From contig NC_087108.1 of assembly GCF_963855985.1 (NCBI RefSeq), positions 10,248,001 to 10,312,000 on the forward strand: 64,000 nucleotides of DNA. Direction: 5' to 3'. Positions 18,982 through 58,198 of this stretch are shown piece after piece (the stretch's first letter is position 1; each line of letters starts with the position of its first letter). Origin of the DNA: Ostrinia nubilalis. Taxonomy: Eukaryota; Arthropoda; Insecta; Lepidoptera; Crambidae. Under the pieces are notes generated by a model. The model ran no database searches and was not told the origin of the DNA. It was given only the letters and a program-made list of their open reading frames with translations. Position numbers and translations under genes: made by a program.

Positions 18982-19053
18982 GTCTAAGTAGCTCAGATGG
19001 AAGAGCAGTCGCCCGGCAAGCGAAAGGTCGTGGGTTCGATTCGCGCCTTAGAA
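18982..19053 (+). pseudogene. Degenerate tRNA-Val-like sequence
   Basis: Same tRNA as at 37288-37360 but with anticodon loop CCGGCAA and a broken T stem (GTGGG against CGCGC) and acceptor end. Flanks of about 20-25 nt on each side also match the other copy. Confidence 0.7.
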
Positions 19054-19092
19054 ATTTCGATATTTTCAAGTTATTTATCGTCACATGAAGTA

Positions 19093-19266
19093 ATCATCAT
19101 CATCATCATCATCATTTCAGCCATGGGACGTCCACTGCTGAACATAGGCCTCCCCCAATGCTTTCCATGTTGATCGATTGGTAGCGGCCTGCGTCCAGCG
19201 CTTCCCTGCTACCTTTACGATGTCGTCGGTTCACCTTGTAGGTGGACGTCCCACGCTGCGTTTTGC
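19093..19266 (-). mobile_element. RTE 3' fragment
   Basis: (ATC)n tail, GGACGTCCACTGCTGAAC, then the reverse-coded C-terminus up to TGGACGTCCCACGCTGCG. Confidence 0.75.
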
Positions 19267-20233: not shown

Positions 20234-23200
20234 GTGAGTTCCCGCCATTATAGCAATTAGTTGAGTGAGATGTCCGCCCGTGGACGCACGGGTTTATGAC
20301 CAATGAAAAAAGAACTATTTGTTTTTAAAACGCGCGGGAAGTCAAACATGTTTTATTGTCTGTGGTTGTGCTGAAAAAAGTTTCGGTTTTTGAAAACCGC
20401 GGGAAAATATATTTTTTGTAGTGTTTTTTTTCGAAGAACTCGAGTAAGTCTTGAATTAACAGTGATTATTTAAATGTGTGTGGAAATGTGCTATTGTTTA
20501 TATTTTCAGGACTAGAGATTCATGTAACTTCAGTGTTTGTTAAAAATTAGTGTGTATTGTTAAAAGTGTTTTGTCGACATAATAACAGAATAACAACGTG
20601 ATGGTGAATAATACGGTAATAATAATGCTTAGTCAGTGACTCTATTAATATGGTTATGTAGTTTCTAGTTTATCTAAATTGATATATTTACAAGTGAGTT
20701 TTCGATTAACCCCCTTACTAATAAAAAGTTACACAGTTGTTGAACACTGTTTTAATATGACATTTCCATACTAAACGTCACTTTAAAACACTGTTCAACG
20801 AGCGTGTAAGTTTTATTAGTAATAAGGGGGTTAGTGTTTATCGTGCAATGGTAAGTGGTAACACTTGCTTGAATTTCACGCAGAAGTGTAACTTATATCT
20901 ACCAGAACCAGGGAAAAGGAAAACGTCTTTAGTTTCTGCAGATAACCAGTTTAAGCATATTATTATCAAATTGCGCGTATTGCTGAAATCTTATGCGATC
21001 CCAAAAGCCTTGTTTCTTTTAGTTATATAGCTTTAAACAAGTACTTCCATGTTTAGGTAGCTTACACATCACAAACACGTGTCGAATTTTGCTGCGTTGC
21101 GAAATTGTTTATAAATGTAACGAGAAACTTAAATCATCATTCTTGAGTAATGTGCAATTTTGTCGAGTTTGCTTTACTGTTTAAAGTAAAAGGTGAGCCC
21201 TGTGCACAGAACAATAAAAAAACATAACCCTCCTTCTGGCGCAGTCGGGTAAAAATTGCTCACCGACGGTTTCGTAAAACTTGTAGTTACCCAGATGCCG
21301 TTCAGAAATTATTGCGATAAAAAGATTTTGTGTGTGAGAGGAGAGACTAGACACTACTTTTTTTTCAATAGTTTTTTATTGTCCACAGGCATCGTCTCAA
21401 CCAGCCAGTGTCCCCGGGGGTTTGCGCAGAGCGGCCGAGGCAGGGAGCACGAGCAGCCGGTGTTGCCGCCTCTGCACCACCCTATCAGAGATGTAAGTTT
21501 ATCTTTACGACTTTATAGAGATTTAGATTTATTTGTTAGTTAATTTACAACTCAATATTGGCTGAGTAAGCTTACGCCAGCTATTGGGAAAAATATAAAG
21601 ACGGGGTGGAAAGAAATAGAATAGTCACCACTAATTTTGAACATTAGATACGGGTTGTGACCAGAAAAGTTTTTAAGTATCGTGTTGCCTATCTAAAGCT
21701 CTACAGACCTACATTTTTTAAGTATTCATTAGGCACTTTAGATTTTTCTTAATTGAGAACTTCTCCTATTTTCTTCTGATTATTTTCGTTGCGGGTCCAT
21801 TGACAGTTTAACTTTTCTCTGGGACAAACTTGACCTACGTTGGTTAGGTTGTTATTTGCGGTCAAGCTGTAGATCTTGGCTACACAGTCTAAGAATTAGT
21901 CCCGTTTTATTTTTTTTAAGTCCTTATTTGATATAAACAAAGAAGCAATTAAAAATTATTTCAACGAAATAATGCCTTTTATTATCACTTTACCGCATTT
22001 TTATAAGCGATTGGGAAATTATCACTAACGTTTATTTTGTCTACGGGAGCATACATTGTGTCACAGCAGCAGGTATATTTCCAGGGGACCCTATGCGCGC
22101 GCAGCACGTACTCGCCGCTACAAGCGCTCAGCGAGAGCACGTGCCGGGACCACGGCGCGCAGCCGGCGCCCCCGCCGCAGCCTCCCAGGGTCCAGGTTGG
22201 AACTGTTCATATTCTACCTTCCCAGGGGACCTTATGCGCGCGTAGTACGTACTCGCCGCTACAAGCGCTCAGCGAGAGCACGTGCCCGGCGCCCCCGCTG
22301 CATCCTCCCAGGGTCCAGGTTGGTACTGTTCATATTTTACCTTCCCAGGGGACCTAATGCGCGCGCAGCACGTACTCGCCGCTACAAGCGCTCAGCGAGA
22401 GCACGTGCCGGGACCACGGCGCGCAACCGGCGCCCCCGCCGCAGCCTCCCAGGGTCCAGGTTGGAACTGTTCATATTCTACCTTCCCAGGGGACCTTATG
22501 CGCGCGCAGCACGTACTCGCCGCTACAAGCTCTCAGTCAGAGCACGTGCCGGGACCACGGTGCGCAGCCGGCGCCCCCGCCCCAGCCTCCCAGGGTCCAG
22601 GTTTGAATTTGTTCATGTTCCACCTTCCTAAGGGTCCCTGTGCGCGCGCAGCAAGTATTCGCCGCTACAAGCGCTCAGCGAGAGCACGTGCCGGGACCAC
22701 GGCGCGCAGCCGGCGCCCCCGCCGCAGCCTCCCAGGGTCCAGGTTGGAACTGTTCATATTCTACCTTCCCAGGGGACCTTATGCGCGCGTAGTACGTACT
22801 CGCCGCTACAAGCGCTCAGCGAGAGCACGTGCCCGGCGCCCCCGCTGCATCCTCCCAGGGTCCAGGTTTGAACTGTTCATATTCTACCTTCCCAGGGGAC
22901 CCTATGCGCGCGCAGCACGTACTCGCCGCTACAAGCGCTCAGCGAGAGCACGTGTCCGGCGCCCCCGCTGCATCCTCCCAGGGTCCAGGTTGGAACTGTT
23001 CATATTTTACCTTCCCAGGGGACCTAATGCGCGCGCAGCACGTACTCGCCGCTACAAGCGCTCAGCGAGAGCACGTGCCGGGACCACGGCGCGCCCCCGC
23101 CGCAGCCTCCCAAGGTCCAGGTTTGAACTGTTCATATTCTACCTTTTATTCGTCTCTTGTTAATGTAATGTAATGTATTTGATGTTTTTTGTACTTTTGG

Positions 23201-26200
23201 ATTGATCAATTATTTTGTGGCGCAGCTTCCACACGCTGGGAACCGAAATGATCGTCACCAAGGCCGGAATTTGATGATGCTCTATTGTTTTTGGTCTGTT
23301 TCTCAACTCACAAGCGCCCATCGCAGTCTTTTGTTTTCTTTTCACATAATATTTTGGTCACTGGCGTTGTGATGTAGGGATTTTATCATTGATGCTCACT
23401 AGTTATTCTGAGATTCAGTAGTTAGTAGTTTTCTGAGATGACCTTGATCTCATCATGATTGTCTTTTTAAACGTCCAAGACTGTCCTTGGTTTGATCAAC
23501 TTTTAGTCCGTACTTTGTTGTTTGATTTTATCTTAACCTTAACCTTTTTTACCCGGTGTACTTCGAGAAATATCTATAAGTCCAGGGCAGTCACTCTAAG
23601 CCTCATCCGCAGTTTTCTCTGCAGGTGTCCTCGCAGAATGTCACGCTGCACTCTGCAGTTGCAAGATGCACCGCGAGCCTGGAGCTAGCAGCGCTCTGGC
23701 GTAGCTTCCACGAGCTCGGAACTGAAATGATCGTCACCAAGGCTGGGAGGAGGATGTTCCCAGCACTGCAAGCTAGATTGGGAGGGCTACTGCCGAATGC
23801 TGATTACTTGTTGCTGGTCGATTTTGTGCCGCTCGACGATAAGCGGTATCGATATGCTTTTCACAGGTGAGTGTTAGCACTTTTGAGAAAGATAACTTTA
23901 TTTTGCTTTATCTAATGCTACTTTTGATATTACCATTCCTTGATGCCATTCTTACATTTGCTTCAGTTATGGTCACACAAGTGCAGCTAACTGAATTAAA
24001 ATATCGTATGAGTCCCTGTACTGACAGTTTTAAATTTCTGATGTCATTATATGGAAAAGCATCAATATACGTCATTATTTTACCCGTAGGCCTAGGACGC
24101 GCGCTACCACAGAATAAGTAATAGTACCAAGCGCTACGATACATTTTTATCGATTTTAAAGTCATACATTTGTCGTCTAAAATCGGAGATTAGATTTTGT
24201 CATGGCGCGCATCTTAGTTTGGCAGGCTTCTGATAAGCATCTCGATATTTAAACTCATATTATCAAAGAAGTCTAACATACATTGTTTGTCCAGCTCAAG
24301 CTGGGTAGTAGCGGGTAAAGCAGACCCGGTATCCCCGCCACGGATCCACGTGCACCCGGACTCGCCTGCGCCCGGCGCCCACTGGATGAGGCAGCTCGTC
24401 TCCTTCGACAAGCTCAAGCTCACCAACAACCAGCTGGACGATAATGGACACGTGAGTTACTGACAAGTCTGACAACTGACATTGTACACGTTGAACTAGA
24501 ACCGAACTGTGGATCAATTACGGATCATAAGATCCTTTATGGCCTATCTAGCTTTTGTAGGTAGCAATTGTAACTGGACCTAAATTGAAATATGTATTGT
24601 TATTTTCACGGTAGGGTAGGATAGTTTAGAAATATGCCATTTGGTCATTTATCAAGAATTGAAATTGAGATCGCCAAAGGCATTTGGACATTTTGGACAT
24701 TGGCAAAATTGGCGAGGCACAAGTTATCCTGAATTAGGTACCTAATAACATTTATGTAATGAGTTATGGGTTGTTTCTTTATAGGGATATACTTTTATCA
24801 GGATGACAGGGTCAGCTAGTGTTAAATAAATATCAATTTTATGTTGCCCGAGTTGTTAAGAGTTCTGTTTTTATCAAGCTTCGTGGTATGTTCTCCATTC
24901 GTAGATAATCCTGAACTCCATGCACCGCTACCAGCCTCGTTTGCACGTGGTGTACCTCCCGGCAGAAGGGCAGAACGCGGCGCCGGGCGTGGTGCCCTTC
25001 AGGACCTTCGTCTTCCCAGAGACCGGCTTCACGGCCGTCACCGCTTATCAGAACCATAGGGTGAGTGCCTTGTGAATATTGTTTTTAAAACAGTTTCATT
25101 TTTGTGTTGTGTGAGCTTGATAGCGGTCGCTAGGCTGAAGCCAGATGATAGGTACCAGATAAGCGTATGTGTAAGTCAGAAAGTATCAATACAGGATAGC
25201 TACATTAAGAGAATATCTAGTAGAGGTGCCCGGGGTGGTGCCCTTCAGGACCTTCGTCTTCCCAGAGACCGGCTTCACGGCCGTCACCGCTTATCAGAAC
25301 CATAGGGTGAGTGCCTTGTGAATATTGTTTTTAAAACAGTTTCATTTTTGTGTTGTGAGCTTGATAGCAACCGCTACGCTGATGACAGAAGATAGGTACC
25401 AGATAAGCGTATGTGTAAGACAGAAGGAGGATAGCTATGTCAAAGAGAGTATCTAGTAGAAGATACCCGGGGTGGTGCCCTTCAGGACCTTCGTCTTCCC
25501 TGAGACCGGCTTCACGGCCGTCACCGCTTATCAGAACCATAGGGTGAGTGCCTTGTGAATATTGTTTTTAAAACAGTTTCATTTTTGTGTTGTGTGAGCT
25601 TGATAGCGGTCGCTAGGCTGAAGCCAGATGATAGGCACCAGATAAGTATCTATATCTAGCTATGTGAAAGAGAGTATCTAGTAGAGGTGCCCGGCGTGGT
25701 GCCCTTTAGGACCTTCGTCTTCCCAGAGACCGGCTTCACGGCCGTCACCGCTTATCAGAACCATAGGGTGAGTGTCTTGAGTATATTGTTTTTAAAGCAG
25801 TTTCATTTTTGTGCTGTGAGCTTGCTAGCGGTCGCTAGGCTGAAGCCAGATGATAGGCACCAGATAAGTATCTATATCTAGCTATGTGAAAGAGAGTATC
25901 TAGTAGAGGTGCCCGGCGTGGTGCCCTTTAGGACCTTCGTCTTCCCAGAGACCGGCTTCACGGCCGTCACCGCTTATCAGAACCATAGGGTGAGTGTCTT
26001 GTGAATATTGTTTTTAAAACAGTTTCATTTTTGTGTTGTGTGAGCTTGATAGCGGTCGCTAGGCTGAAGCCAGATGATAGGCACCAGATAAGTATCTATA
26101 TCTAGCTATGTGAAAGAGAGTATCTAGTAGAGGTGCCCGGCGTGGTGCCCTTTAGGACCTTCGTCTTCCCAGAGACCGGCTTCACGGCCGTCACCGCTTA

Positions 26201-29200
26201 TCAGAACCATAGGGTGAGTGCCTTGTGAATATTGTTTTTAAAACAGCTTCAGTTATGTGCTGTGAGCTATTAGCGATCGCTATGCTGAAGCCAGATGATA
26301 GGTACCAGATAAGCGTATGTGTAAACCAGAAGGTATCAAGGCAAGATAGTTATGTTTAAGAGAGTATCTAGTAGAAGATGCCCGGGGTGGTGCCCTTCAG
26401 GACCTTCGTCTTCCCAGAGACCGGCTTCACGGCCGTCACCGCTTATCAGAACCATAGGGTGAGTGCCTTCTGAATATTGTTTTTAAAACAGTTTCATTTT
26501 TGTGTTGTGTGAGCTTGATAGCGGTCGCTAGGCTGAAGCCAGATGATAGGTTCCAGATAAGCGTATGTGTAAACCAGAAGGTATCAAGGCAAAATAGTTA
26601 TGTTTAAGAGAGTATCTAGTAGATGTACCCAGGGTGGTGCCCTTCAGGACCTTCGTCTTCCCAGAGACCGGCTTCACGGCCGTCACCGCTTATCAGAACC
26701 ATAGGGTGAGTGCCTTCTGAATATTGTTTTTAAAACAGTTTCAGTTTTGTGCTGTGAGCTTGATAGCGGTCGCTAGGCTGAAGCCAGATGATAGGTACCA
26801 GATAAGCGTATGTGTAAACCAGAAGGTATCAAGGCAAGATAGTTATGTTTAAGAGAGTATCTAGTAGAAGATGCCCGGGGTGGTGCCCTTCAGGACCTTC
26901 GTCTTCCCAGAGACCGACTTCACGGCCGTCACCGCTTACCAGAACCATAGGATACTCACCCTATCTCTTGTGTCTTGTGAATCATCACTATTCATCATCA
27001 TAATTTTATCCACAGGATGTCTATTCTGAAGGTAGGCTTTCCCCAATGATTTCCAGTTGCCACCAGCATCCAACTTCTCCTGAAATTTCTATGAGGTCGT
27101 CAGTCCACCTTGTGGGCAAAGTGTGGGCCTTGTGAATATTGTATTTAAAAAAGTTACAGTTTTTCGGTAAGCCTGATAGTGTTCTCTAATACGAATTCAG
27201 AAGGTACCTGATAAGTGTGTACGTGTAGGTACGTGTTCAACGTTGACAATAATAATTTCAGTACAATTTCTAATGTAAAAGTTGAATATTCACATTTTCG
27301 TTCCACGTAAAATGAAACTAAACTTATCTTTTACAGATAACGCAACTAAAAATAGCGAGCAATCCGTTTGCAAAAGGGTTCAGAGACTGCGACCCCGATG
27401 ACTGGTAAGTCCATCTTTCACTTTTTTGACTAAGCTAACTAAATTAGTATAAATACCGGGTGATTTTGTAATCAGTCAAGCGTAGCGGATAAAAATAATT
27501 AAATATGACAAAAAAGTTTTTTTTTCACGTAAAAAGATTAAGTTACTGATTCTGAATTTTGGATAAAAAATTTGGATACTGATTGCAATTTGCAAAGTCA
27601 CCCTGTACTTATGTACCTAATCAAATTAATTTCGTGTTATTTCGAAATGTACCACTATCAAAATAAACTTTAAAGACAACTTATACAGTAATTAAGCGGA
27701 CAGATGAACACAATTATGAGGAAACTAAAATTTTACGAACCATCAATTTCAAAGTTTGAGCGCCGCCATTTTTTCTTTTTAGCGGGAGCGGGAAACGAGG
27801 CATGTCCGCCATAACTGTCCCCGTAACTCTTTACTCTATGGCTGCGTCGTAAAAGTAAATTGTCACCGGCTGTTGAAACTCTATGTCCTTGCGTTGTGAA
27901 CAGTTTTAGTTGGGACATTTTGTTTTGTAGTGCGTTGATTCATTATTGTTGTGACATGGAGGATGTTACAGAAATGTGGCTTCGTTTATTTAAACATAAA
28001 AGAGTTTTATGAGGTTGGGGTAAAAGTGGTGGATGGATTGATAGTTTATGAGGGATATAGCTACAGGGTGGTCGCCGTGGTGACATTAATAAGGGCTATA
28101 TTTCACCGGGACACCATGGCGGCGCAACCAGTCGCGCGTTACCAACAAAATGTACCTATACAGCTCTATAGAGAGTTACTCACCTGGTGTCCGTTTGGTT
28201 GCGCAAAGCTGTATACATTTTGTTGGTAGCGGCGACTGGTTGCGCCGCCATGGTGTCCCGGTGAAATATAGCCCTAACTATGAGCGCTCTAGCTACAGGG
28301 AGTCGTTTGATTAAAATATATTGAGCGTAATAAGAACGTTAAAACTAAATCTACAGAATTATAGGTCTAACACCTAACTTACTCAGTGCCTGAGGTATGG
28401 GAGCGGCACAGGAGGGTGTTTTTGCGACGTCAAACCTACTTACCTTACCATCGATATACAGGGTGTTAGGTAAATGGGTATATGAGCCGACACTAGCCCA
28501 TGTTAACATGGTCATATAAATGGTATGGTGAAGTCAGAAAATTGATATCTTCATTTTAATTATTTTAATTTTCATACAAATCGGATTTTATCAAATTTAT
28601 TTTGTATGAAAATTTAAAAAAATTAAATCATGATATCAAATTTCTGACTATACCATACCATTTATATGACCATGTTAACATGGGCTAGTGTCGGCTCATA
28701 TACCCATTTACTTAACACCCTGTATATTTATGATACATGTATATTATTACTGAGATAATAGAGAGAGACACGCATAATAGAAATACCAGGCATAAGGATA
28801 AACTTTACTTACCTCAATCAAGAATAAAAATGTTAAATACCAGCTCCTACTACATGTCAGTGAAACTATACAACAAACTTCCTGAACACATAAAAACCGA
28901 ACCTAACATTAAACGCTTTTCTAAAGCTCTGAGACAATATTTAATACCTAAATGTTTCTACTCAATTAACGAATATCTAACAACTAACCACCGAAAATGT
29001 CTCTAGATACTTTAATTTGTAATCTGCTTATTTTTTTATTCTTTCGCATCGAAGTATGCATATGTTTACATCTCATATTATGTATAATGTATTATGTATA
29101 GCCGTACAGTAACTCTGTTGCAATACCTCCTAGGTCACTAAGTCTTAAGCCCATGTGTATGTAATTTCCACCATTACAATAATTGTCACTTAGTACGCAA

Positions 29201-32200
29201 TAAAGATTTGAATTTGAATTTGAAACGAGACTACAGAATAGCTTTAGATTTGTATGCTCTGTCAAGTCATAATATGTGATTGTCACCCCTTCCTTGCCGC
29301 TCAAATACCGCAGGTACTGACTGAGTTAGCACTAAAAAAACTCATTAAAACTCACAAAAAGTCTTTTTTGAACCTCCAGGCCTAGGGTACTCCAAAAATA
29401 CTAGTGTAGGTATGCCTAAAATTACTGCTGTTTCACCTGCATATACTAAAGAACGAAAGAAAGAAAGAAACATTTATTGCCACGGACATCACAAAAGACA
29501 AAAGAGGTAAATAAAAAAAAAGCAAATAAGACAGAGATGACATAACACATACAATGGAAGAGAAAGTAAACTGAGCAGTGCCACCCTGTCGCACAGCGAT
29601 GCCCATCGCAATGGGACCCCACTCAGCATATGCCGTGGCCCCCGGTGAGGGCCACGACGCTGGTTTTCAGTGTGCCCCAACTATGGTGTGTGTACTACTA
29701 AATCTTCTCCAAAATTAGCTAGGTCTACACTCTACATAGTTTTGTCTAGACTTTACATAAACATTAGCAACCAATCAGCAGTGTTTGCAGCTGAATAATA
29801 GTGCTTCTGGTACGCTTCAGCTCGCTATTGGTGCATAAAATGGGTGTTTGTGTTGGCGTGAGAAACGCTGCTCGTAAAAATGTATACGGGTTGCTTTATG
29901 TAATGCAATGATCTAATTTTGGTTGTTACATTGTAGATTAGTTGTAGGTGTTACGTTGTATATCTCCAAATGATATAATAGTTATTGTAACTTCAGTAAG
30001 TTACATTAATTTAGAAATAAAGTTTGGGTCTTTTATCTACTCGTTATCTAGGAACTCTAAGTTGTACAATATAGGTACTTATTATTAGATGGAATTGGAG
30101 TTAAAACTTAAATACCTGCCTTTATGGTCTAAAAAGTACTATCTAAAACTTTTCTATTTTATCAATAGTTGACTGATAGACAATGCATGTTACAATTTTG
30201 CGCATTAGTCGTATATGGATATGGGAGCCCTTTAGACCTGTCACACACTTAAAATGTAAGTCTTCGGAAGCCTACCTAATTAAGTTTCTACAAGAGTTTC
30301 AAGAACCCTTTTTCAGCCTCTTACAATAGCTATTTTTAAGCACCCATTAAACTTTTACAACTAAAACAATGTAGCCATAAGTACCATCCATTCAATCTAT
30401 AAACAACGCTACCATAAACAAAGATTGTTTACCACCGCGCGTTACTGCCGTTCTGGCCGCTGCATTGGCTACTCGAGGGAAATTAATTCAGCAGGCGGTT
30501 ATTCTCCCGCTGTACAAGTTTGTAGCTGACCAATCACTGAGTTGGAATGTGTATTCTTCTTTGCTGTGAATTTGGAAGTGACGAAAAAAATAAAATTAAT
30601 GCTATACATATTAATTGCTACGCAGTAGCTGAAAGACACTTAAAATAGCTTTCAAATTCTTTCAAGTATTTAACCGATTCAAGTTTCAAGTTTTTAAAGT
30701 TGAAAAGACTTTGAAAATGTACTTATTTAGTATTATTTGTGTTAATAAAAAAAAACCTATTTCTTTTACTTTTTAATGCATTGATTAAGGAGTTGGTCTT
30801 ATTTTTTGCTAACATTAATTTTTGTTTTGTTTTTAACCGACTTCCAAAAAAAGGAGGAGGTTCTCAATTCTTGTAGTCATCTATCATAGTCATCTAGCCT
30901 AGGACAAGAAACAAATTATGTGCTAAGATAAACTATGTTTATGATTTTCAAAAAGTTATCATAAGATATTCAATGACAGTTAATTAGCTTTCTGGAAATA
31001 TGACCATGATCCTTGCAGCCCGCCCAGTAGGCGGGGTCGTATTACGGCCTCCGTGTTAATCCTCTATTTTGACAGCCCACGACAAATGGCTATCGCACGA
31101 CAGTCCCAGATATTAATCGATCTCACCAGGAAGACATTCAAATTTATAATTCACGCTTTTTGTCCCGTTCCGCCATCCTTTTTTGTCCCGCTCCAATGTT
31201 TGTACATGTGGCGATCAGTTTTTTCGCTGTCTTCGGCGACGTAATAAATGGCCGTGTTTATTTTTGTAGGACTTATCTAGCTTGGCTTTTAGTCATTATA
31301 AGAAACTGAACTCCCATTCATCAGTTTTTGTTCTGATTTTCGGGGAATCGGTTGATTGATTAATTTATATTTTTACAGGTTCACTTATTGGTAGCAAAAA
31401 CTAAATTATGGATCGTTGAAAAACACGGATGTTATTTAAAACAATGTTTATATTCGGAATTAAGGAGTACGCAGTGTTGAAATTGAAGCGAAAAAAGCCC
31501 TAATAATATTGTCACTGTTGGGTTTGTAACCCCATGTTTTATGGTGAACCCATTCCTAGCATGAGCATGATATATTTAACTTAGCTTTTTAGCGGTTAGC
31601 GGGAATCTGGGCAAACTTGACCGTCACTGGATAGGTTTTTGTTGGCGGTCAAGCTGTAAATCCTTACTATCCAGAAGTATCAGCGATGGGAGAGATGGAA
31701 ATAGACCCGTTATAGCATCATTTTGCGTTCTAGGAACTAAGAAGCTGCTATTCGTAGTCTTTTTGTGGGTTTTTGCCCCCATCATGGTTACTTAAGTCTC
31801 AAACATAAGTTTATCCTTCTAGTCTCCCAGTACGCATTTACAGGGCAGATATTATTATGTACCATACTAGTCTGCATCCCATTTAGCACCAGGATTGTGG
31901 TCGGCCTGCCTTTTTACCCATAAAAAACATCTTTTCATCGGTTTATACTCTCATCATCGTCACGTCAGTCTCAAATGCACCATTATACTTCCAGTCCCCC
32001 CGACCAGACTCAACAGCGAGGCACTCCTAGACGCCGTGAGCCGTCAGCCCCAGAGCCCTGCCCTCAACTAAGTCAGCCGTACGCTGCGGAACCCAGCGCG
32101 TGCGGACCTTTGTACGCTACCCATGCTCACCCAGTACGGTAAGTAAAAAGTATCATCTTATATCTTATCTATATACAGGGTGTCCCGTAATGTAACGTCA

Positions 32201-35200
32201 AGCCGGAACTGGGTGTTGAGGCAAGTTGTGCTGGTTATTAGAAAAATAAAAATAAAAAATCTATGTGGCATATTTTAAAAATAATAGGCATTTAAAAAAA
32301 ATAAAAAAATTCTACTCCAGGTGACGGTCCTTTTGCTCGTGTTGCCACAAATCTTCACTTTTTCCAAATTTTTTTTTGTTATGTAACCCTGAATAATGCT
32401 TCTCTAAATTGTTATCAAAATTACAAAACCAGCTGCTCCAGCTTGGATGAAAAAATACATTATTCCCAAATTAAATTTCAAAATAAAAATTTTGCCTAGT
32501 TTAAACTGACTGTACTGAAAAAAAAATGTACTACGCTAGTGTGGCAAGTGACGTCATAATTTGGCGCATTTAGTAAGGATTCCAAAATGGTATAACACTT
32601 GGTAAATTTTTGCTGTAATTGTCGACAATTTTTGGTTTTTTGGAAATAGTCCCGTTTTTAACTTTATCTACCTTGGTTAAAAATTATTATTCTAATGTGC
32701 CCAAAATTCAAGTTTCTGTGACTGACTACCGTACAGTCAGTCACAGAAACTTTTGTCACCATGACAGTAATTAGTAGTTGACATACTGTGACAAAAGTCA
32801 CCCGTGCGCGCGCGCCTTTACTACCTGCTCTGCCTGCACTTGTACTTGGTAACAGGGATAATAAGGATATGAAGTTTCGGTTATGGATACGGTTACGGAT
32901 ATTAGAATAATATTATACCGGTTTCGGTTACGGTCACGGATATGAAATAATTTCAGATTATCCGAAAGTCTCGGATAATTTCGGATACGGAATTATTAGA
33001 ATTTCAAAAATGTAGGTATAATACAAATAGCAAGATGCTGCGTGAGCGTGAACCACATAGCTACTTTATGTACCAACTAAGACGACACCTATGTATGATA
33101 AAGGTAAAACAGGCTGGCATTTTAGATGGTGCCAGCGAATGCCAGACAAGTTGGTAACAAATATTAAGATTTAAGGTACAATTCCAAGACGGGCCGCCGG
33201 ACCGCAAACTGCAACCGCAAACTGCAAAACTATGAAATCGGCAGCGCGGCATTGCAGCTGCGGCGTGTATACTGCAGATTTCATAGAGTTTTGCAGTTTG
33301 GCCTATATCCGAAACTATCCGTAACTTTTGAATCAGTTTCGGTTACGGTTATGGACATTTTTTTATTTCGGATATCCGATACTTTCGGTTACGGTTACGG
33401 ATATCCATAACATCCCTGCTTGGTAAGATGGCCCTCTCCGTCCCGCTCATACCTTTTAAAATGGCTTCTCCACCTCACTTAAGCCAGAAACTTGAATTTT
33501 GGGCACATTAGAATAATATTTTTAACCAAGGTAGATAAAGTTAAAAACGGGATTATTTCCAATAAACAAAAATTGTCGACAATTACAGCAAGATTTTACA
33601 AAGTGTTATACCATTTTGGAATCCTTACTAAATGCGCCAAATTATGACGTCACTTGCCACACTCGCGTAGTACAATTTTTTTTCAGTACAGTCAGTTTAA
33701 ACTAGGCATAATTTTTATTTTGATATTTTTTTTGGGAATAATGTATTTTTTTCATCCAAGTTGGAGCAGCTGGTTTTGTAATTTTGATAACAATTTAGAG
33801 AAGCATTATTCAGGGTTACATAACAAAAAAAAAATTTGGAAAAAGTGAAGATTTGTGGCAACACGAGTAAAAGGACCGTCACCTGGAGTAGAATTTTTTG
33901 ATTTTTTTTAAATGCCTATTATTTTTAAAATATGCCACATAGATTTTATTTTATATTTTTCTGATAACCAGCACAACTTGCCTCAACACCCAGTTCCGGC
34001 TTGACGTTACATTACGGGACACCCTGTATATAAATATATATATAAAAGAAAGTCGTGTTAGTTACTCCACTTATAACTCAAGAACGGCTGAACCGATTTA
34101 GCTGAAAATTGTCAGGGAGGTAGTTTAGAGCCAGGAAAAGGACATAGGATACTTTTTATCCCGTTATTTATTGCCATTAAGGCGGAACAAAGTTCGCCGG
34201 GTCAGCTAGTCTATTATATAAAAGAAAGTCGTGTTAGTTACTCCACTTATAACTCAAGAACGGCTGAACTGATTTAGCTGAAAATTGTCAGGGAGGTAGT
34301 TTAGAGCCAGGAGAAGGACATAGGATACTTTTTATCCCGTTATTTATTGCCATTAAGGCGGAACAAAGTTCGCCGGGTCAGCTAGTATATTTATAAAAAC
34401 TGCTGCCTCCCCAACCCGTCTGGCTAGCCATTCTGGGAGTGGGTAGTCAATGCGAAATATCGCTCAACGGTTGGAATGTGCAGGTGTCAAAATGTCCATA
34501 GGGACCGGCTTTTAGTGTGGCAAAAAGTATGAACGTCAAAAAGTCCCAGTGTCAAAATGTACTATCACCATGGTTACAATGGAGTGTAGGCCAAATCCTC
34601 CATTTGCTACTGGTAAATTAGAGGGTCATGCTCCTGCAGTGGAGACTAAATGACCTGATGATGATGATGGTGATAAAAACTGCTGATTCAAGCAAGCTTT
34701 TAATCTCCTCTTTGTACTGCAGAGGTCAATCTCCAATGATGTTTGTCTCTGGTATCAACTTTCACTCATTATTTCAGCCATAGAATGTGCTACTGCTGCG
34801 GACTGCTGAACATAGGCCTCCCCAATGATTTCAATAGTGACCTGCATCCAGCGCCTTCCACCTTTTTCAACCGTCCGTCAAACTTTCACTGATAGGGTTT
34901 TATTTGCGATCAAGCTGTAGATTCTGATTGCACAGAAGTTGCAATAGTAGGAACCATAATCACGTACAACAATGTCCCAATCAAGAGTCTAATGCCCGTT
35001 TTCACCATCAATCCCTCTTTTTTAAGTGACCCCTATGGTAACTCATACCAGGAAGTTTGTTTTCAAAGGGGTTAGGGGAGACTGGCCCAAAGCGGGCACT
35101 CTGCCTAAAGCGGGCACCCCCCTCTAAATTTACACTCATTTGCTCGACTTGTTGTCTTGTCTTGTTAACGTTATCCCCCCGCCCCGCCGCTCCCGCGGAA

Positions 35201-36977
35201 GTCGTATGCGCCACCTCCGAGTGACAACACCACGCGTGGACAGCGATGAACGAAATTCGTCAATTTTATTTGAAAAAACAAAGGTATGTTCGTTGTGTTT
35301 TGGATTAAACTGAGTGACGTACGTTATTATCAATGTATGCGTAATGTGTTGCACCTACTTTACCGTGTTTTAAGGCTATTTCCTTGAAAATTATTTAAAA
35401 GGAATTATAGTTTATATTTTATGAAACGTGGTGTGACGCAAAAGGCAAAGTGAGCAGGGCAAAATGAGCATGCTCACTTTACCCTCTTCATAGACATATA
35501 AACTAACTTGCTTTTATTGTTAGTCCTCTATATTTATCGTGTAGATATAGTCCGTTTTTCTTTGCTAGTCGAACAATGTAAACAATCTTTTTATAAATTT
35601 TAAAGTAATATCTGTGAAAAAAATTAATAAATTATATGATTTGATAAGATATCGGTGTTCAACGATGACTTACCTATGTAGGTTGTGAGCTTTGTGTTTA
35701 TCTTATTTTAAAACGAATTATTTCGTCAAAAAGAAATATTAAGATTGTTTACAATATTGGACAAGCAAAGAAAAACAGACTTTAGTGTAGACATTAATCT
35801 CTTATTATTTGACTTTTTAGATGGTAAATAAAATAAAAGAAAATCACAACAAGGTTCTTGGAGTGAAGCTGAAATACTTCAGCTCAAAAGCTTCAAAATA
35901 CTAGAAGATAATGATTCAAGACTGCATTATTCAAAGAGAGTTCCTTCTGATTAGTTTTATGTTTTAATTTTCATGTTGTTTGATGAATTTTTATGTCTAG
36001 AATCTATTTTTTGGCAATAAAGAAAGTATGATTCTCATTCTGTGTTTGAATAGAGACATTCCTTATTATTCAAAGGTCAAAATTATATATAGTAAAAATA
36101 AAAAGAAACGATTGCCCTCTGCATGCCCGTTTTGCCCGTGTGCCGGTGCTCGCTTTAGGCCACCCCCTCGGGCAAAGTGAGCAAGTGATAGTGTTTCGTA
36201 TTTGAGTGCCTACTTTTTATATATTAGACAAATGAATGATTTGAAAACGCCATGTCAAACTACAATAAATGTAGTAACTGATCACGATAAAAACTTATTC
36301 CGTTTTGCTTATTCTGTGTGTTTTTTTCCTACTTTACCTTAAGGTGCCCGCTTTGGGCCAGTCTCCCCTACTTAAAAATTAGGGATTGATGGTGAAAACG
36401 GGCATAAGTGCGGTTTAGATTGCTCTGCTTAAACTTAGTAAGAACGAGAGGTAGAAATAGTTTCCGAGGCTTGCAATGTCCTAACTACACTTTTGAAGTT
36501 TGTCTCAAAAAATAAAGTGATCCAAAAAGCGTAATGTAGTCAAGCAAAAAAAGTCAAATTCAGCATAATTCCAATTCCATTCCAAGAGTTAAGTTTGCGT
36601 TAGTTGTGAAAATATTTTATTGTAAATGAATATTTTCTACTTAGCAACTTTAGTTTGCGTTAGTTTTGAAAATATTTTAATGTAAATGAATATTTTCTAC
36701 TTAGCAACTTTAGTTTGCGTTAGTTGTTAAAATATTTTAATGTAAATGAATATTTTCTACTTAGCAACTTTAGTTTGCGTTAGTTGTGAAAATATTTTAA
36801 TGTAAATTAATATTTTCTACTTTTTTTACAACTTTAAAAAAACCATTTCTGATTTTTGGAATCTAATGGGGTTCGAAATGGCAAATCACTATATTAAAAA
36901 TCTTTTGTTAATGTTACAGGTACCAACCTCACGCCGGTCACAACAGTGCTTACAGCGCGTACTATGCCCACAGGTAG
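20188..36977 (+). CDS. org-1: T-box transcription factor, Tbx1/Tbx10 orthologue (org-1), multi-exon
   Basis: Nuclear DNA-binding factor; in flies org-1 specifies visceral and somatic muscle founders (family knowledge). Exons read here: 20188-20233 (tentative start), 21389-21492, 22085-22195 (one copy of an eight-copy array), 23625-23866, 24295-24451, 24905-25060, 27337-27404, 31995-32138, 36920-36977. Splice phases agree throughout and the sum is 1086 nt, 361 residues plus stop. The T-box runs from [15 protein letters not shown] through [21 protein letters not shown] and [10 protein letters not shown] to [15 protein letters not shown]; the last motif is diagnostic of the Tbx1/org-1 class rather than omb, Doc, H15 or Tbx20. 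The C-terminus is short (ends in AYSAYYAHR). Uncertain points: the first exon, which array copy is used, and whether a small exon is missing between 27404 and 31995, since joining these two turns the expected Trp codon into Cys. T-box identity is near certain; the full model is not. Confidence 0.88.
20707..20833. mobile_element. Hairpin MITE, 127 bp
   Basis: TAACCCCCTTACTAATAAAA and its inverse TTTTATTAGTAATAAGGGGG; inner arms AACACTGTT/AACAGTGTT. Confidence 0.8.
21389..21492 (+). CDS. org-1: org-1 upstream exon, N-terminal to the T-box
   Basis: GC-rich island in AT-rich surroundings with a pyrimidine-rich acceptor ending CCACAG and a GTAAGT donor. In the frame that fits its neighbours it reads [11 protein letters not shown] then a Gly/Arg/Glu-rich stretch ending LHHPIRD. 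It ends in phase 0, matching the next exon. All three frames are open, so the frame rests on the phase match. Confidence 0.6.
21780..21915 (+). repeat. Dispersed repeat D1, copy b
   Basis: Same ordered motifs (TTCGTTGCGGGTCCA, GACAGTTTAACTTTT, GCGGTCAAGCTGTAGATC), in the org-1 intron before array A. Confidence 0.6.
22085..22195 (+). CDS. org-1: org-1 upstream exon (array copy 1)
   Basis: 111 nt, phase 0 to 0, between an acceptor TTTCCAG and a donor CAG/GTTGGA. It reads [20 protein letters not shown] and then a Pro-rich end closing in PPRVQ. It is the first of eight tandem copies. Only this copy has a normal intron on its 5' side; the gaps between copies are 30 nt, too short for a usual intron. 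Copy 7 (from 22896) or another intact copy could be used instead. Confidence 0.5.
22085..23143 (+). repeat. Tandem array A: eight copies of an org-1 exon with 30-nt spacer
   Basis: Units begin near 22085, 22226, 22349, 22490, 22632, 22773, 22896 and 23019. Unit length is about 141 or 123 nt; the short type lacks an 18-nt in-frame piece. Both lengths are multiples of three, so other frames stay open over the whole array (for example one 293-codon frame ending at 23163). In the exon frame copies 1, 2, 4, 5, 6 and 7 are open at the start (GTLCA or GSLCA), while copies 3 and 8 carry TAA as their third codon. Every unit keeps AG before and GT after the 111-nt exon core. Composition is strongly GC-rich against the surroundings. 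Confidence 0.9.
23219..23269 (+). pseudogene. Duplicated fragment of the first org-1 T-box exon
   Basis: About 50 nt closely match 23698-23748 of the true exon and encode [15 protein letters not shown], followed by a stop soon after. There is no splice donor and no rest of the exon. It lies just after array A and 360 nt upstream of the real exon, so it is a non-functional exon scrap left by local duplication. Confidence 0.8.
23625..23866 (+). CDS. org-1: org-1 T-box exon 1
   Basis: Acceptor CTCTGCAG, donor CACAG/GTGAGT. It starts in phase 0 and ends two bases into a Ser codon. It encodes the start of the T-box: [28 protein letters not shown], then [23 protein letters not shown]. An alternative acceptor 12 nt further in (after TCCTCGCAG, start 23637) keeps the same frame. 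Confidence 0.93.
24295..24451 (+). CDS. org-1: org-1 T-box exon 2
   Basis: Acceptor TTTGTCCAG, donor GGACAC/GTGAGT. 157 nt, completing the split Ser codon. It reads [43 protein letters not shown], a central T-box block closest to Tbx1-class proteins. Confidence 0.95.
24905..25060 (+). CDS. org-1: org-1 T-box exon 3 (full-length copy)
   Basis: 156 nt, phase 0 to 0. It encodes [19 protein letters not shown], a short variable loop, then [24 protein letters not shown]. Donor AGG/GTGAGT. This is the only copy in the array with the 5' half of the exon, so it is the one that can build a complete T-box. Confidence 0.95.
24980..26951 (+). repeat. Tandem array B: nine copies of the 3' half of T-box exon 3
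   Basis: The 3' 81 nt of exon 3 plus intron flank is repeated. Exon-like cores end at 25060 (true exon), 25306, 25543, 25767, 25989, 26213, 26458, 26705 and 26951; spacing is 222-247 nt. Each core encodes about 27 residues ending [20 protein letters not shown](R). Copies at 25226, 25463, 25687, 25909, 26133 and 26378 have AG directly before an in-phase core and an intact GTGAGT donor, so each could be spliced in frame. The copy at 26625 lost the aligned AG. The last copy (26871-26951) lost the donor and has Gly to Asp in the GFTAV motif. Confidence 0.93.
26993..27125 (-). mobile_element. RTE 3' fragment in an org-1 intron, at the end of array B
   Basis: TTCATCATCATAATTTTATC then AGGATGTCTATTCTGAAGGT and GGTCGTCAGTCCACCTTGTG; diverged. 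Confidence 0.6.
27337..27404 (+). CDS. org-1: org-1 T-box exon 4
   Basis: Acceptor TTTTACAG, donor ACTG/GTAAGT. 68 nt reading [15 protein letters not shown] then RDCDPDD and the first two bases of a Trp codon. This closes the T-box and carries the class-diagnostic DCDPDDW. Confidence 0.95.
28092..28275. mobile_element. Inverted-repeat MITE, 184 bp
   Basis: AGGGCTATATTTCACCGGGA...TCCCGGTGAAATATAGCCCT; arms pair for about 60 bp (ACACCATGGCGGCGCAACCA). Confidence 0.85.
28459..28722. mobile_element. TA-flanked MITE, family M3, copy a (264 bp)
   Basis: CAGGGTGTTAGGTAAATGGG and its inverse between TA/TA, mariner/Tc1-like. Identical in length to the copy at 56670. Confidence 0.85.
28733..29224 (+). 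pseudogene. 3' end of a Jockey/CR1-type LINE
   Basis: The frame at 28737-29006 reads [31 protein letters not shown] and FYSINEYL, the C-terminus typical of Jockey/CR1-class RT, then a 3' UTR and a (TTTGAA)n tail at 29205-29223. Severely 5' truncated. Confidence 0.75.
29450..29700 (-). mobile_element. LINE 3' end with TTTC-type tail
   Basis: (GAAA)n then CATTTATTGCCACGG. On the minus strand it encodes [20 protein letters not shown], a conserved lepidopteran LINE end. Confidence 0.55.
31590..31745 (+). repeat. Dispersed repeat D1, copy c
   Basis: TTGTTGGCGGTCAAGCTGTA with flanking GGGCAAACTTGACCG and GATGGGAGAGATGG; just upstream of the org-1 exon at 31995. A fourth, diverged copy is near 34880-34985. 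Confidence 0.55.
31995..32138 (+). CDS. org-1: org-1 exon after the T-box
   Basis: Acceptor ACTTCCAG, donor TACG/GTAAGT. The open frame gives [20 protein letters not shown] and then a Pro/Ala/Tyr/His-rich stretch ending HAHPV. It is GC-richer than the flanks. Phase matches the T-box exon and the terminal exon, but the first base is T where Trp would need G. Confidence 0.72.
32176..34026. mobile_element. Long TIR element (1.85 kb), TA-flanked, with nested insert
   Basis: CAGGGTGTCCCGTAATGTAA and its complement at the far end; arms pair for several hundred bases on both sides. No transposase is seen. A hAT-type MITE is nested at 32853-33418. Confidence 0.88.
32853..33418. mobile_element. hAT-type MITE with perfect 8-bp duplication
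   Basis: Ends CAGGGAT...ATCCCTG, flanked on both sides by CTTGGTAA (32845-32852 and 33419-33426). Subterminal repeats of GGTTACGGATA. Confidence 0.88.
34030..34388 (+). mobile_element. Two tandem Helitron-like elements
   Basis: Two near-identical units of about 180 bp (34035-34210 and 34211-34388), each starting near TATATAAAAGAAAGTCGTG and ending GCCGGGTCAGCTAGT. A lone end of the same family (CAGGGTCAGCTAGTG) lies near 24806. Confidence 0.65.
34765..34880 (-). mobile_element. RTE 3' fragment, diverged
   Basis: CTGAACATAGGCCTCC and CCTGCATCCAGCGCCTTCC are recognisable. Confidence 0.55.
34992..36405. mobile_element. MITE split by a larger TIR element
   Basis: The outer ends ATGCCCGTTTTCACCATCAA and its complement enclose an inner element at 35073-36370. 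Confidence 0.8.
35073..36370. mobile_element. Inner TIR element, 1.3 kb
   Basis: TAGGGGAGACTGGCCCAAAG and its complement at 36351-36370. Inner motifs GGCAAAGTGAGCA recur in both directions. No transposase is seen. Confidence 0.82.
36590..36822 (+). repeat. Tandem repeat, 60-bp unit, about four copies
   Basis: Unit contains TAGTTTGCGTTAGTTGTGAA and TGAATATTTTCTACTTAGCA; copies in register at 36601, 36661, 36721 and 36781. It lies about 100 bp upstream of the last org-1 exon. Confidence 0.92.
36920..36977 (+). CDS. org-1: org-1 terminal coding exon
   Basis: Acceptor ATGTTACAG. It completes the split Arg codon and reads [18 protein letters not shown] then TAG. Phase agrees with the 31995-32138 exon. 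An AATAAA lies at 37276, but inside a tRNA-like repeat, so the real poly(A) site is unclear. Confidence 0.7.
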
Positions 36978-37287: not shown

Positions 37288-37360
37288 TGCCTAAGGTGGG
37301 AATCGAACCCACGACCTTTCGCTTGTCAGGCGACTGCTCTTCCATCTGAGCTACTTAGAC
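37288..37360 (-). tRNA. tRNA-Val(GAC)-like sequence, probably part of a mobile repeat
   Basis: A 72-nt cloverleaf on the minus strand: seven-pair acceptor, D arm GCTC/GAGC, anticodon loop CTGACAA (GAC), T arm GTGGG/CCCAC with loop TTCGATT, and A as discriminator base. The anticodon stem has one mismatch (G27:A43). The flanks match those of the degenerate copy at 18982, so this may be a tRNA-derived repeat rather than a working gene. It sits 310 nt downstream of the org-1 stop. Confidence 0.55.
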
Positions 37361-47409: not shown

Positions 47410-48000
47410 CTTCATCATCATCATCATTTCAGCCACAGGACGTCCACTACTGAACATAGGCCTCCCCCAATGACTTCCACATCGCACGGTTGGTAGCGGC
47501 CTGCATCCAGCGCCTTCCCGCTACCTTTATCAGGTCGTCGGTCCACCTTGTGGTGGGTTGACATTGCAGAATATGACTTTTGATAGGTTCATCATAGAAT
47601 TCGGCGGGGATATCCTCACGGAGGAAGTTCGTAAAAGGGCGGAACAAGATCTTATAATAATGCAAGGCCGAAGCTGTTACGCGCGTGCTCCTACGTGTAA
47701 TCCGGCGAGTATGCAATAAATAGTAATGTCTGGTAAATAGTGGTAATACGTATCGTTCGTTCGTTCGTTTCAGCCGAAAAGACGTCCACTGCTGGACAAA
47801 GGCCTCCCCCAAGGATTTCCACGAAGACCGATCCTGCACCGCTCGCATACAGGCACCTCCCGCGACCTTCACCAGATCGTCGGTCCACCTAGTGGGAGGC
47901 CTGCCCACGCTACGTCTTTCGGCTCGTGGTCGCCACTCAAGAACTTTCCTGCCCCAGCGGCCATCAGCTCTACGAGCTATGTGCCCCGCCCAGTCTATGT
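47410..48000 (-). mobile_element. Two RTE 3' fragments
   Basis: One fragment at 47410-47560 (ATC tail, [20 protein letters not shown]) and one at 47755-48000 ([30 protein letters not shown]), same strand, about 200 bp apart, from different subfamilies. Confidence 0.7.
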
Positions 48001-56665: not shown

Positions 56666-56669
56666 TATA

Positions 56670-56933
56670 CAGGGTGTTAGGTAAATGGGTATATGAGCCG
56701 ACACTAGCCCATGTTAACATAGGCATATAAATGGTATGGTGAAGTCAGAAATTTGATATCATGATTTTAATTTTTTTAATTTTCAATCAAAATAAATTTT
56801 ATAAAATCCGATTTGTATGAAAATTAAAATAATTAAAATGAAGATATCAATTTTCTGACTTCACCAAACCATTTATATGACCATGTTAACATGGGCTAGT
56901 GTCGGCTCATATACCCACTTACCTAACACCCTG
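56670..56933. mobile_element. TA-flanked MITE, family M3, copy b (264 bp)
   Basis: CAGGGTGTTAGGTAAATGGG and its complement; same family and length as 28459-28722. Confidence 0.87.
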
Positions 56934-58198
56934 TATAAGTTAGGTTTCATAAGATATACGGTATTAAGGCCTTTTAGAGTTCTACAGAGCATAATATGGA
57001 GCTTTTACTACCATCTTCATAAAGTATAAGTTTGTCTAGGCTACCATGTCCTACTGCTGCTCTTTAAATGTACCTATGCATGTCCCACTAGTGTATTATA
57101 TAAATTGAAAATATGAAATTGTATTTTTTTGCCGACAGTACAGCACAATTACTGCATTCAAAATGCATTTCAAACAGTTTGAAGGTTTTATCAAATTATA
57201 CGTTACCACAGAAATGGCCCACTATTTTGGTTAGAAAATCACATTGGAATTTAATTGATTAAGGTAAACAACGACCTATCATTTTTATTGTTTAGCTTGC
57301 AATAAATTTAAATTTTAACTACGTACCTACCAGTTTTTATGCTTGTTTAAAACAATAAATATTTATTATGCTTGTTTTTTTTATCTTCGAAATTTTATGA
57401 CCGAGGAAAAATTATACAAAAATAGTTTTAAGAATTAAAGAACATATGTATACATAGGTACATTATATTTATTCATTGATGACTTCAAAACATTGGAATT
57501 AGGATTAAATTAATACCTAATTCTAATGTGTTGAAACGTATTTTTGAGGCATCGAATATTAATTACTAATATTCGATCCCTTCCCAAAAATTGTTTAATG
57601 TCTGTAAAGATCCATTATACATGCAAACATTATCCTATAAACCTATTACTTAACTTCAGAGTTGATCCAAGTACAAGTAGCGAAGGAAAATCGAACTTAC
57701 ACCGCGGGGTAAGTCAGCACAGCGCCATCTAGTTCACGTTAGGTTGCAACTTTTCCGTTTGCCGCGTTCTACTTCAGACGTAACATCTGTCTACCTTTAG
57801 TAATTGATGTGTAACAAAATTGAATTGATGTTTAGTGTCTTTTAATGGGCGATACTGTAATAAAATAACTATAATTCTTTGTGAAGGAGCGACATGGAAT
57901 TGTTCTCTATTTTCAAAGACATGCAATATGATTTCCATGGCCTGGAATAAAGAAAATCATACTCCTTTTTGAGTAAATTGTTATCTCTAGATGAAGATTG
58001 AGGGAATTTTGGTTAAAAAAACAATGGTAAAATGCTTGATCGAGTCTGGAAATCAAGCTTATACTAATGTTGTTACACACTTCATATTATTACCTGATTA
58101 TTTTTCTTTATATTGTTAAACGCATTTAAACAATAAACAAAAATAAATCAATGAGTATGGTCGAGAGTAGGTACCGGTGTATGCGTATTGATCTAGAC
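56934..58198. other. Intergenic stretch between the IR and the Pro-rich gene
   Basis: AT-rich; nothing recognised. Confidence 0.45.

Follow-up and report, generated by a model that had tools for sequence, protein, structure and literature searches.

The locus considered here raises a simple question: are eight additional copies of the end of an exon, lined up in the intron that follows this exon, alternative coding sequences of a transcription factor, or by-products of tandem duplication that splicing ignores? They lie in a stretch of 64,000 nucleotides (nt) of the moth Ostrinia nubilalis (assembly GCF_963855985.1, contig NC_087108.1, positions 10,248,001 to 10,312,000 of the forward strand), referred to below as the window and numbered from its first letter, in a predicted T-box transcription factor gene of the Tbx1/org-1 type on the plus strand. 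We propose, with a probability of about 0.6, that the copies are mostly skipped decoy pseudo-exons, which arose by tandem duplication and whose similarity is maintained through exchange with the working exon.

The joined exons of this gene match the Pfam T-box family (PF00907, E=5.9e-75, over 18-202), the best match of the T-box part among the 14 PDB sequences compared is human TBX1 (4a04, E=1.5e-93), and a TBX1-like protein of Ostrinia furnacalis, P0001, is 99% identical to the T-box part over the 208-residue query, in agreement with the gene type given in a preliminary description of the window. The name org-1 comes from that description; one listed beetle match, P0154, is so named. The exon borders were set by tblastn of P0001 and by inspection of the splice sites. 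In the resulting model the copied exon (called T-box exon 3 in the preliminary description) is E5, and its surroundings are as follows.

24905-25060, plus strand: exon E5, T-box, complete, 156 nt; its last 81 nt (24980-25060) are core c1; donor GTGAGT
25226-25306, plus strand: partial copy c2, with AG, 27 open codons and GTGAGT
25463-25543, plus strand: partial copy c3, with AG, open, GTGAGT
25687-25767, plus strand: partial copy c4, with AG, open, GTGAGT
25909-25989, plus strand: partial copy c5, with AG, open, GTGAGT
26133-26213, plus strand: partial copy c6, with AG, open, GTGAGT
26378-26458, plus strand: partial copy c7, with AG, open, GTGAGT
26625-26705, plus strand: partial copy c8, with GAT instead of AG, G changed to R, GTGAGT kept
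26871-26951, plus strand: partial copy c9, with AG kept, donor lost (AGG followed by ATACTC), G changed to D
26952-27120, no strand assigned: insertion after c9, in which 26980-27059 resembles 19092-19172 (78%) and 26992-27115 resembles 47415-47553 (71%)
27121-27236, plus strand: remnant of the intron start past the last copy, 25-34% diverged from the spacers of the array
27337-27404, plus strand: exon E6, the expected partner of E5 in splicing (tblastn, splice borders)

The repeated unit consists of the last 81 nt of E5, the donor and about 165 nt of intron. The nine blocks end at 25060, 25306, 25543, 25767, 25989, 26213, 26458, 26705 and 26951, which corresponds to spacings of 246, 237, 224, 222, 224, 245, 247 and 246 nt, and the score of Tandem Repeats Finder for 25207-26951 (2470, for a threshold of 50) is far above chance. 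Six of the eight partial copies (c2-c7) keep an AG, an open core of 81 nt (27 codons) in phase 0-0 and GTGAGT, while the 5' half of E5 is present in the first block only; the copied part amounts to 81 of the 156 nt of the exon, so that this is not a tandem duplication of a whole exon. The preliminary description had reported the same layout: nine blocks spaced by 222-247 nt, a 5' half confined to the first one, and six partial copies with AG, phase 0-0 core and donor.

Such a layout would be produced if, in a tandem duplication, the intron that follows E5 had been cut about 165 nt from its start and joined to the middle of the exon, giving a unit made of the intron start, the 3' part of the exon and its donor, which unequal exchange within the long identical stretch would then multiply. 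The AG before each partial core would thus have been created by the join, without a pyrimidine tract. As a matter of fact, the stretch before the partial cores is purine-rich and has no such tract: positions -22 to -5 contain 6-7 pyrimidines out of 18 in the seven partial copies that have the AG (and 8 in c8, which does not), as against 8, 14, 11, 12 and 11 at the genuine acceptors of E2.1 (the exon E2 described below), E3, E4, E5 and E6. For this reason we infer that splicing most likely runs straight from the E5 donor after 25060 to the E6 acceptor at 27336 and passes over the copies, which have good donors. The loss of the AG or of the donor in two of the eight partial copies also counts for the decoy reading. 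Reading through the donor of E5 adds four codons and then meets a stop (GTG AGT GCC TTG TGA).

The proteins found by similarity give the same picture. No repeat junction, second T-box block or double E2 was found among 243 distinct listed proteins, which were pooled from searches with the T-box part (best 120 of 2978), with P0001 (71 proteins at E<=1e-100 among 7959 candidates scored) and with a hypothetical inclusion protein (best 120 of 683, length range about 102-325 residues). Our first motif pattern missed 81 of the 243 proteins, owing to residue variants, and 79 of these 81 hold YQN; this shorter motif occurs twice in nine of the 243 listed proteins, none of which (0/9) has a second T-box block. 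The two Ostrinia models, P0001 and P0121, each carry one E5 block and one E2, as database models and not as RNA counts. The preliminary description had suggested that inclusion of a copy would insert 27 residues without breaking the frame; the frame indeed stays open, but the acceptors are poor and the listed proteins hold no repeat junction.

The relations between the units tell how the array may have grown. When units U2-U9 are read as a spacer plus the core that follows it, U4-U6 differ from one another at 1-6 of about 142 spacer sites and at 0/78 core sites, and U7-U9 at 5-12 of about 164 spacer sites and 1-3 of 78 core sites, while U2 and U3 stand apart, their spacers being 8-16% different from those of other units. 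On this sequence evidence, U4-U6 and U7-U9 are apparently two recent triplets of units. The internal spacers differ by 1-16% and are thus more alike than the edge copy, which is the pattern of concerted evolution and fits the idea that exchange homogenizes the inner copies but not the edge. The divergence (25-34%) of the edge remnant, a feature that the preliminary description does not mention, suggests that the first duplication was old, so that the recent expansion put forward earlier would hold for the two triplets but perhaps not for the whole array. A gene conversion restricted to the core, considered from the comparison of c3 and c5, was dropped: the pattern of spacer and following core needs nothing but the duplication of units. 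We also note that the broken end of c9 (26946-26965), near the start of the insertion, reads ACTCACCCTAT, an inverted donor sequence such as would come from a fold-back or a small inversion.

Core and spacer do not vary alike. In what follows, variation is counted as segregating sites among the eight partial cores, which are not independent events and whose numbers are small; the join codon (the first of each core, V/I/M) is left out of the main count, and so are the gapped spacer columns, which leaves 138. Six of the 78 core sites are variable against 31/138 in the spacer (Fisher p=0.005), with units of 222-247 nt, which substantiates the nearly unchanged cores and the spacers of variable length reported earlier. 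Parsimony on the FastTree topology gives 6 steps over 78 core sites and 41 steps over 140 spacer sites. The deficit is found at the amino-acid-changing core sites, fewer of which are variable than in the spacer (2/57 vs 31/138, p=0.0007), whereas the synonymous ones behave like the spacer (4/21 vs 31/138, p=1); the direct comparison of the two classes (2/57 vs 4/21) gives p=0.042, and, in the intact copies c2-c7 alone, 0/57 vs 3/21, p=0.017. When the join codon is included, 3-4 of 60 amino-acid-changing sites are variable, which still differs from the spacers (p=0.002-0.008), but the contrast with synonymous sites then depends on how the third position of this codon is treated (p=0.025-0.195) and is gone if both of its variable sites are taken as amino-acid-changing (4/60 vs 4/21, p=0.195).

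The reading of the copies as skipped pseudo-exons would account for this bias if they were repeatedly renewed from the working exon by exchange, which would leave few amino-acid-changing differences; as a lesser possibility, the bias could come from low-level inclusion of the 27-residue block. Several points weigh against our proposal. The shortage of amino-acid-changing core sites is not predicted by plain decay, and the exchange with the working exon would need to be frequent. Both amino-acid changes fall in c8 and c9, that is, in the copies that lack the AG or the donor. The pyrimidine count is a crude score and makes a weak argument, since the genuine acceptor of E2.1 has just 8 of 18. Last, the database models are compatible with rare isoforms, and the proteins were listed as 90% clusters.

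A second array in the same gene, which like the E3 fragment described with it is absent from the preliminary description, bears on the question. It is made of eight copies of exon E2 (alignment, codon table), and the rest of the gene model, in which E2 and E3 are the exons concerned, is as follows.

21388-21492, plus strand: exon E1, from residue 17 of P0001, where homology starts; ends with IRD; donor GTAAGT
22085-22195, plus strand: exon E2, which is copy E2.1; 111 nt, phase 0-0, translation identical to P0001 there
22085-23120, plus strand: array of eight whole copies of E2
22085-22195, 22226-22318, 22349-22459 and 22490-22600, plus strand: copies E2.1 to E2.4; E2.3 has TAA
22632-22742, 22773-22865, 22896-22988 and 23019-23120, plus strand: copies E2.5 to E2.8; E2.8 has TAA
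23218-23267, plus strand: single E3 fragment in the intron before E3, 88% identical to 23697-23746
23625-23866, plus strand: exon E3, start of the T-box (tblastn, splice borders)
24295-24451, plus strand: exon E4, T-box (tblastn, splice borders)
near 31996-32138, plus strand: exon E7 (tblastn)
near 36918-36974, plus strand: exon E8, the last exon found (tblastn)

The first 16 residues of P0001 had no match, either among the plus-strand tblastn matches listed beyond 5000 or in a motif search of the three forward frames.

The copies of E2 are 111, 93 or 102 nt long, all multiples of three, and are separated by gaps of 30-31 nt. They are tandem duplications of a whole exon, with a correctly placed AG in seven of the eight, GT in all eight and TAA in two; in E2.5 the AG is one base out of place, which would put the reading frame out of register. 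Judging from these signals, five of the eight (E2.1, E2.2, E2.4, E2.6 and E2.7) would be usable in principle. Comparison of the intron after E2.8 with the sequence before E2.1 indicates that the join set intron sequence, TTCATATTCTACCTT, before CCCAG, and the resulting hybrid acceptors have 14 pyrimidines of 18, against 8 at E2.1. Because the join has here made a pyrimidine-rich acceptor, it is easier to believe that one E2 copy at a time serves as an alternative than that E5 copies are included. Neighbouring E2 copies would hardly both be spliced in, since a length of 30-31 nt is under the usual minimum for insect introns; in the E5 array, whose gaps are 141-166 nt, size would allow the joint inclusion of copies. 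Steric hindrance has been named as one of the mechanisms by which duplicated exons stay mutually exclusive (PMC1919356). P0121 has VYFQ before GTLC and the window encodes VYFQ solely upstream of E2.1, so that this form would use E2.1, provided that O. furnacalis has the array. It may be added that acceptors in pairs 12 nt apart, at E2.1 (22060-22090) and at E3 (23595-23630), explain the VYFQ and FSLQ insertions of this Ostrinia isoform.

The E2 copies show the same kind of bias as the E5 cores, with 7/80 amino-acid-changing and 11/32 synonymous sites variable (p=0.003), or 5/80 vs 10/32 (p=0.001) without the two copies that have TAA; changes were counted by eye, and codon 3 (CTA/TTA/CTG/TAA) was scored as two synonymous changes and one nonsense change. 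The two TAA codons and the shifted acceptor show that copies in this gene do decay, and, since an array with broken copies nevertheless has the amino-acid bias, this bias does not amount to proof of use for each of the copies. In both arrays it could stem from renewal from the working exon. A process like that proposed for E5 would have separately built the array from E2: two exon-derived arrays and one fragment, with units running into the donor-side intron, argue for several rounds of local tandem duplication and, after them, unequal exchange.

Other readings of the E5 array have to be weighed against ours. One that we consider unlikely is that c2-c7 are cassette exons of 81 nt used in some tissue or stage, each adding a 27-residue T-box block after the AYQNHR segment, and that selection keeps them open; the products would probably be DNA-binding-defective or dominant-negative forms. 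The AG, open core and donor of these six copies, the absence of amino-acid-changing variation among them (0/57 vs 3/21) and the fact that both arrays are built on phase 0-0 exons are all in line with such a use, against which stand the lack of a pyrimidine tract before the copies, the lack of a repeat junction among the 243 listed proteins and the tiny counts, whose contrast with synonymous sites is lost when the join codon is counted (4/60 vs 4/21). Moreover, the insertion point is inside an unbroken alignment to TBX1 4a04, from which harm to the fold would seem likelier than gain. An extended form of this reading, in which amino-acid-level selection acts on both arrays, the E2 copies being interchangeable N-terminal modules of 31-37 residues and the E5 copies T-box blocks added in steps of 81 nt, so that a graded series of DNA-binding-competent and DNA-binding-defective org-1 proteins would result, strikes us as very unlikely. 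That the copies instead serve through their donors, extra GTGAGT sites binding U1 and slowing or regulating the removal of the intron, with a copy number that tunes dosage, is a rather doubtful idea. It draws on the concentration of this motif (8 of the 21 plus-strand sites of the window fall within 25061-27336, genuine donor included) and on the identity of GTGAGTG across c1-c8, but at the spacer rate of 31/138 chance would leave seven intron bases unchanged in about 1 case in 6, and the copies have no good acceptors.

A purely neutral, minisatellite-like expansion, the bias being due to small numbers and to different mutation rates of a GC-rich core and an AT-rich spacer, seems improbable to us too. 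The events are few (4 synonymous, 2 amino-acid-changing), and within U7-U9 two of the three core changes alter the protein, as this reading would have it; however, the synonymous core sites vary like the spacer, so that no lower mutation rate of the core is seen, and the E2 array is biased in the same direction (7/80 vs 11/32 and 5/80 vs 10/32). Among the options named in the preliminary description, splicing decoys and neutral expansion are those that fit best, except that plain neutral decay leaves the shortage of amino-acid changes unexplained. An artefact of assembly is hardly credible and was set aside because the copies carry private differences: their spacers differ by up to 16% and their lengths range from 222 to 247 nt, while a mis-joined repeat would be near-identical.

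The window contains other repeats, outside the two arrays. A palindromic element of about 290 nt at 28446-28735, with arms 88% alike, has a second copy at 56666-56937 (95% over 272 nt) and the look of a mobile element; an inverted pair of about 560 nt, 96% identical (32158-32718 and 33485-34045), lies in the intron after E7; a 60-nt tandem repeat (3.8 copies, 36592-36822) is right before the last exon found. Rfam gives two tRNA matches, at 18982-19054 (plus strand, 42 bits) and 37288-37360 (minus strand, 66 bits).

In minisatellites, or variable number tandem repeats (VNTRs), copies grow by unequal exchange, the units are near-identical and the edge is more diverged. The E5 array is like them in its growth pattern and unlike them in that its unit brings along a complete splice donor together with part of a DNA-binding domain, in frame; our literature search found no paper on a minisatellite or VNTR that crosses an exon-intron boundary, nor any on the arrays of this gene, judged by the titles and abstract starts of the matches. 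Arrays 4 and 6 of Dscam consist of tandem exons with mutually exclusive splicing (PMC3236188). The likeness lies in the head-to-tail copies of exons in one gene, those of E2 being whole, in the same phase and with AG and GT. The Dscam exons described there, however, are strongly diverged paralogues with introns of about 200 and about 100 bp, and gene conversion was undetected (PMC3236188), whereas the moth arrays encode near-identical proteins from re-duplicated units, with gaps of 30-31 nt in the E2 array and partial exons with a join-derived AG in the E5 array. Closer in mechanism is a duplication across an exon-intron boundary, which carries splice signals and creates new exon/intron borders; in the reported case (PMC4974935) the new intron is spliced, while in the moth the new borders lie inside an existing intron, are found in eight copies and most likely go unused.

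In Lepidoptera, exon duplications with and without nonsense mutations have been described in butterfly BAC sequences (PMC3166123). Like the E2 array, these are duplicated exons of which some are broken by nonsense mutations; the passage concerned names p80 katanin, Brahma, Sod2 and a cell cycle gene and has no array of eight copies, and the main text contains no mention of T-box. The human tandem duplicated exon substitution events (PMC9741552) are also in-frame copies able to substitute for each other, but most are described as ancient and highly expressed, while several of the moth copies are broken.

Should the copies be silent, the gene offers a clear natural case of in-frame pseudo-exons with good donors being made by tandem duplication in a developmental gene, and exchange with the working exon may mimic constraint, which is a warning for tests of selection on tandem exons. 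Should some of them be used, the copy number of an exon would alter the DNA-binding domain of a transcription factor.

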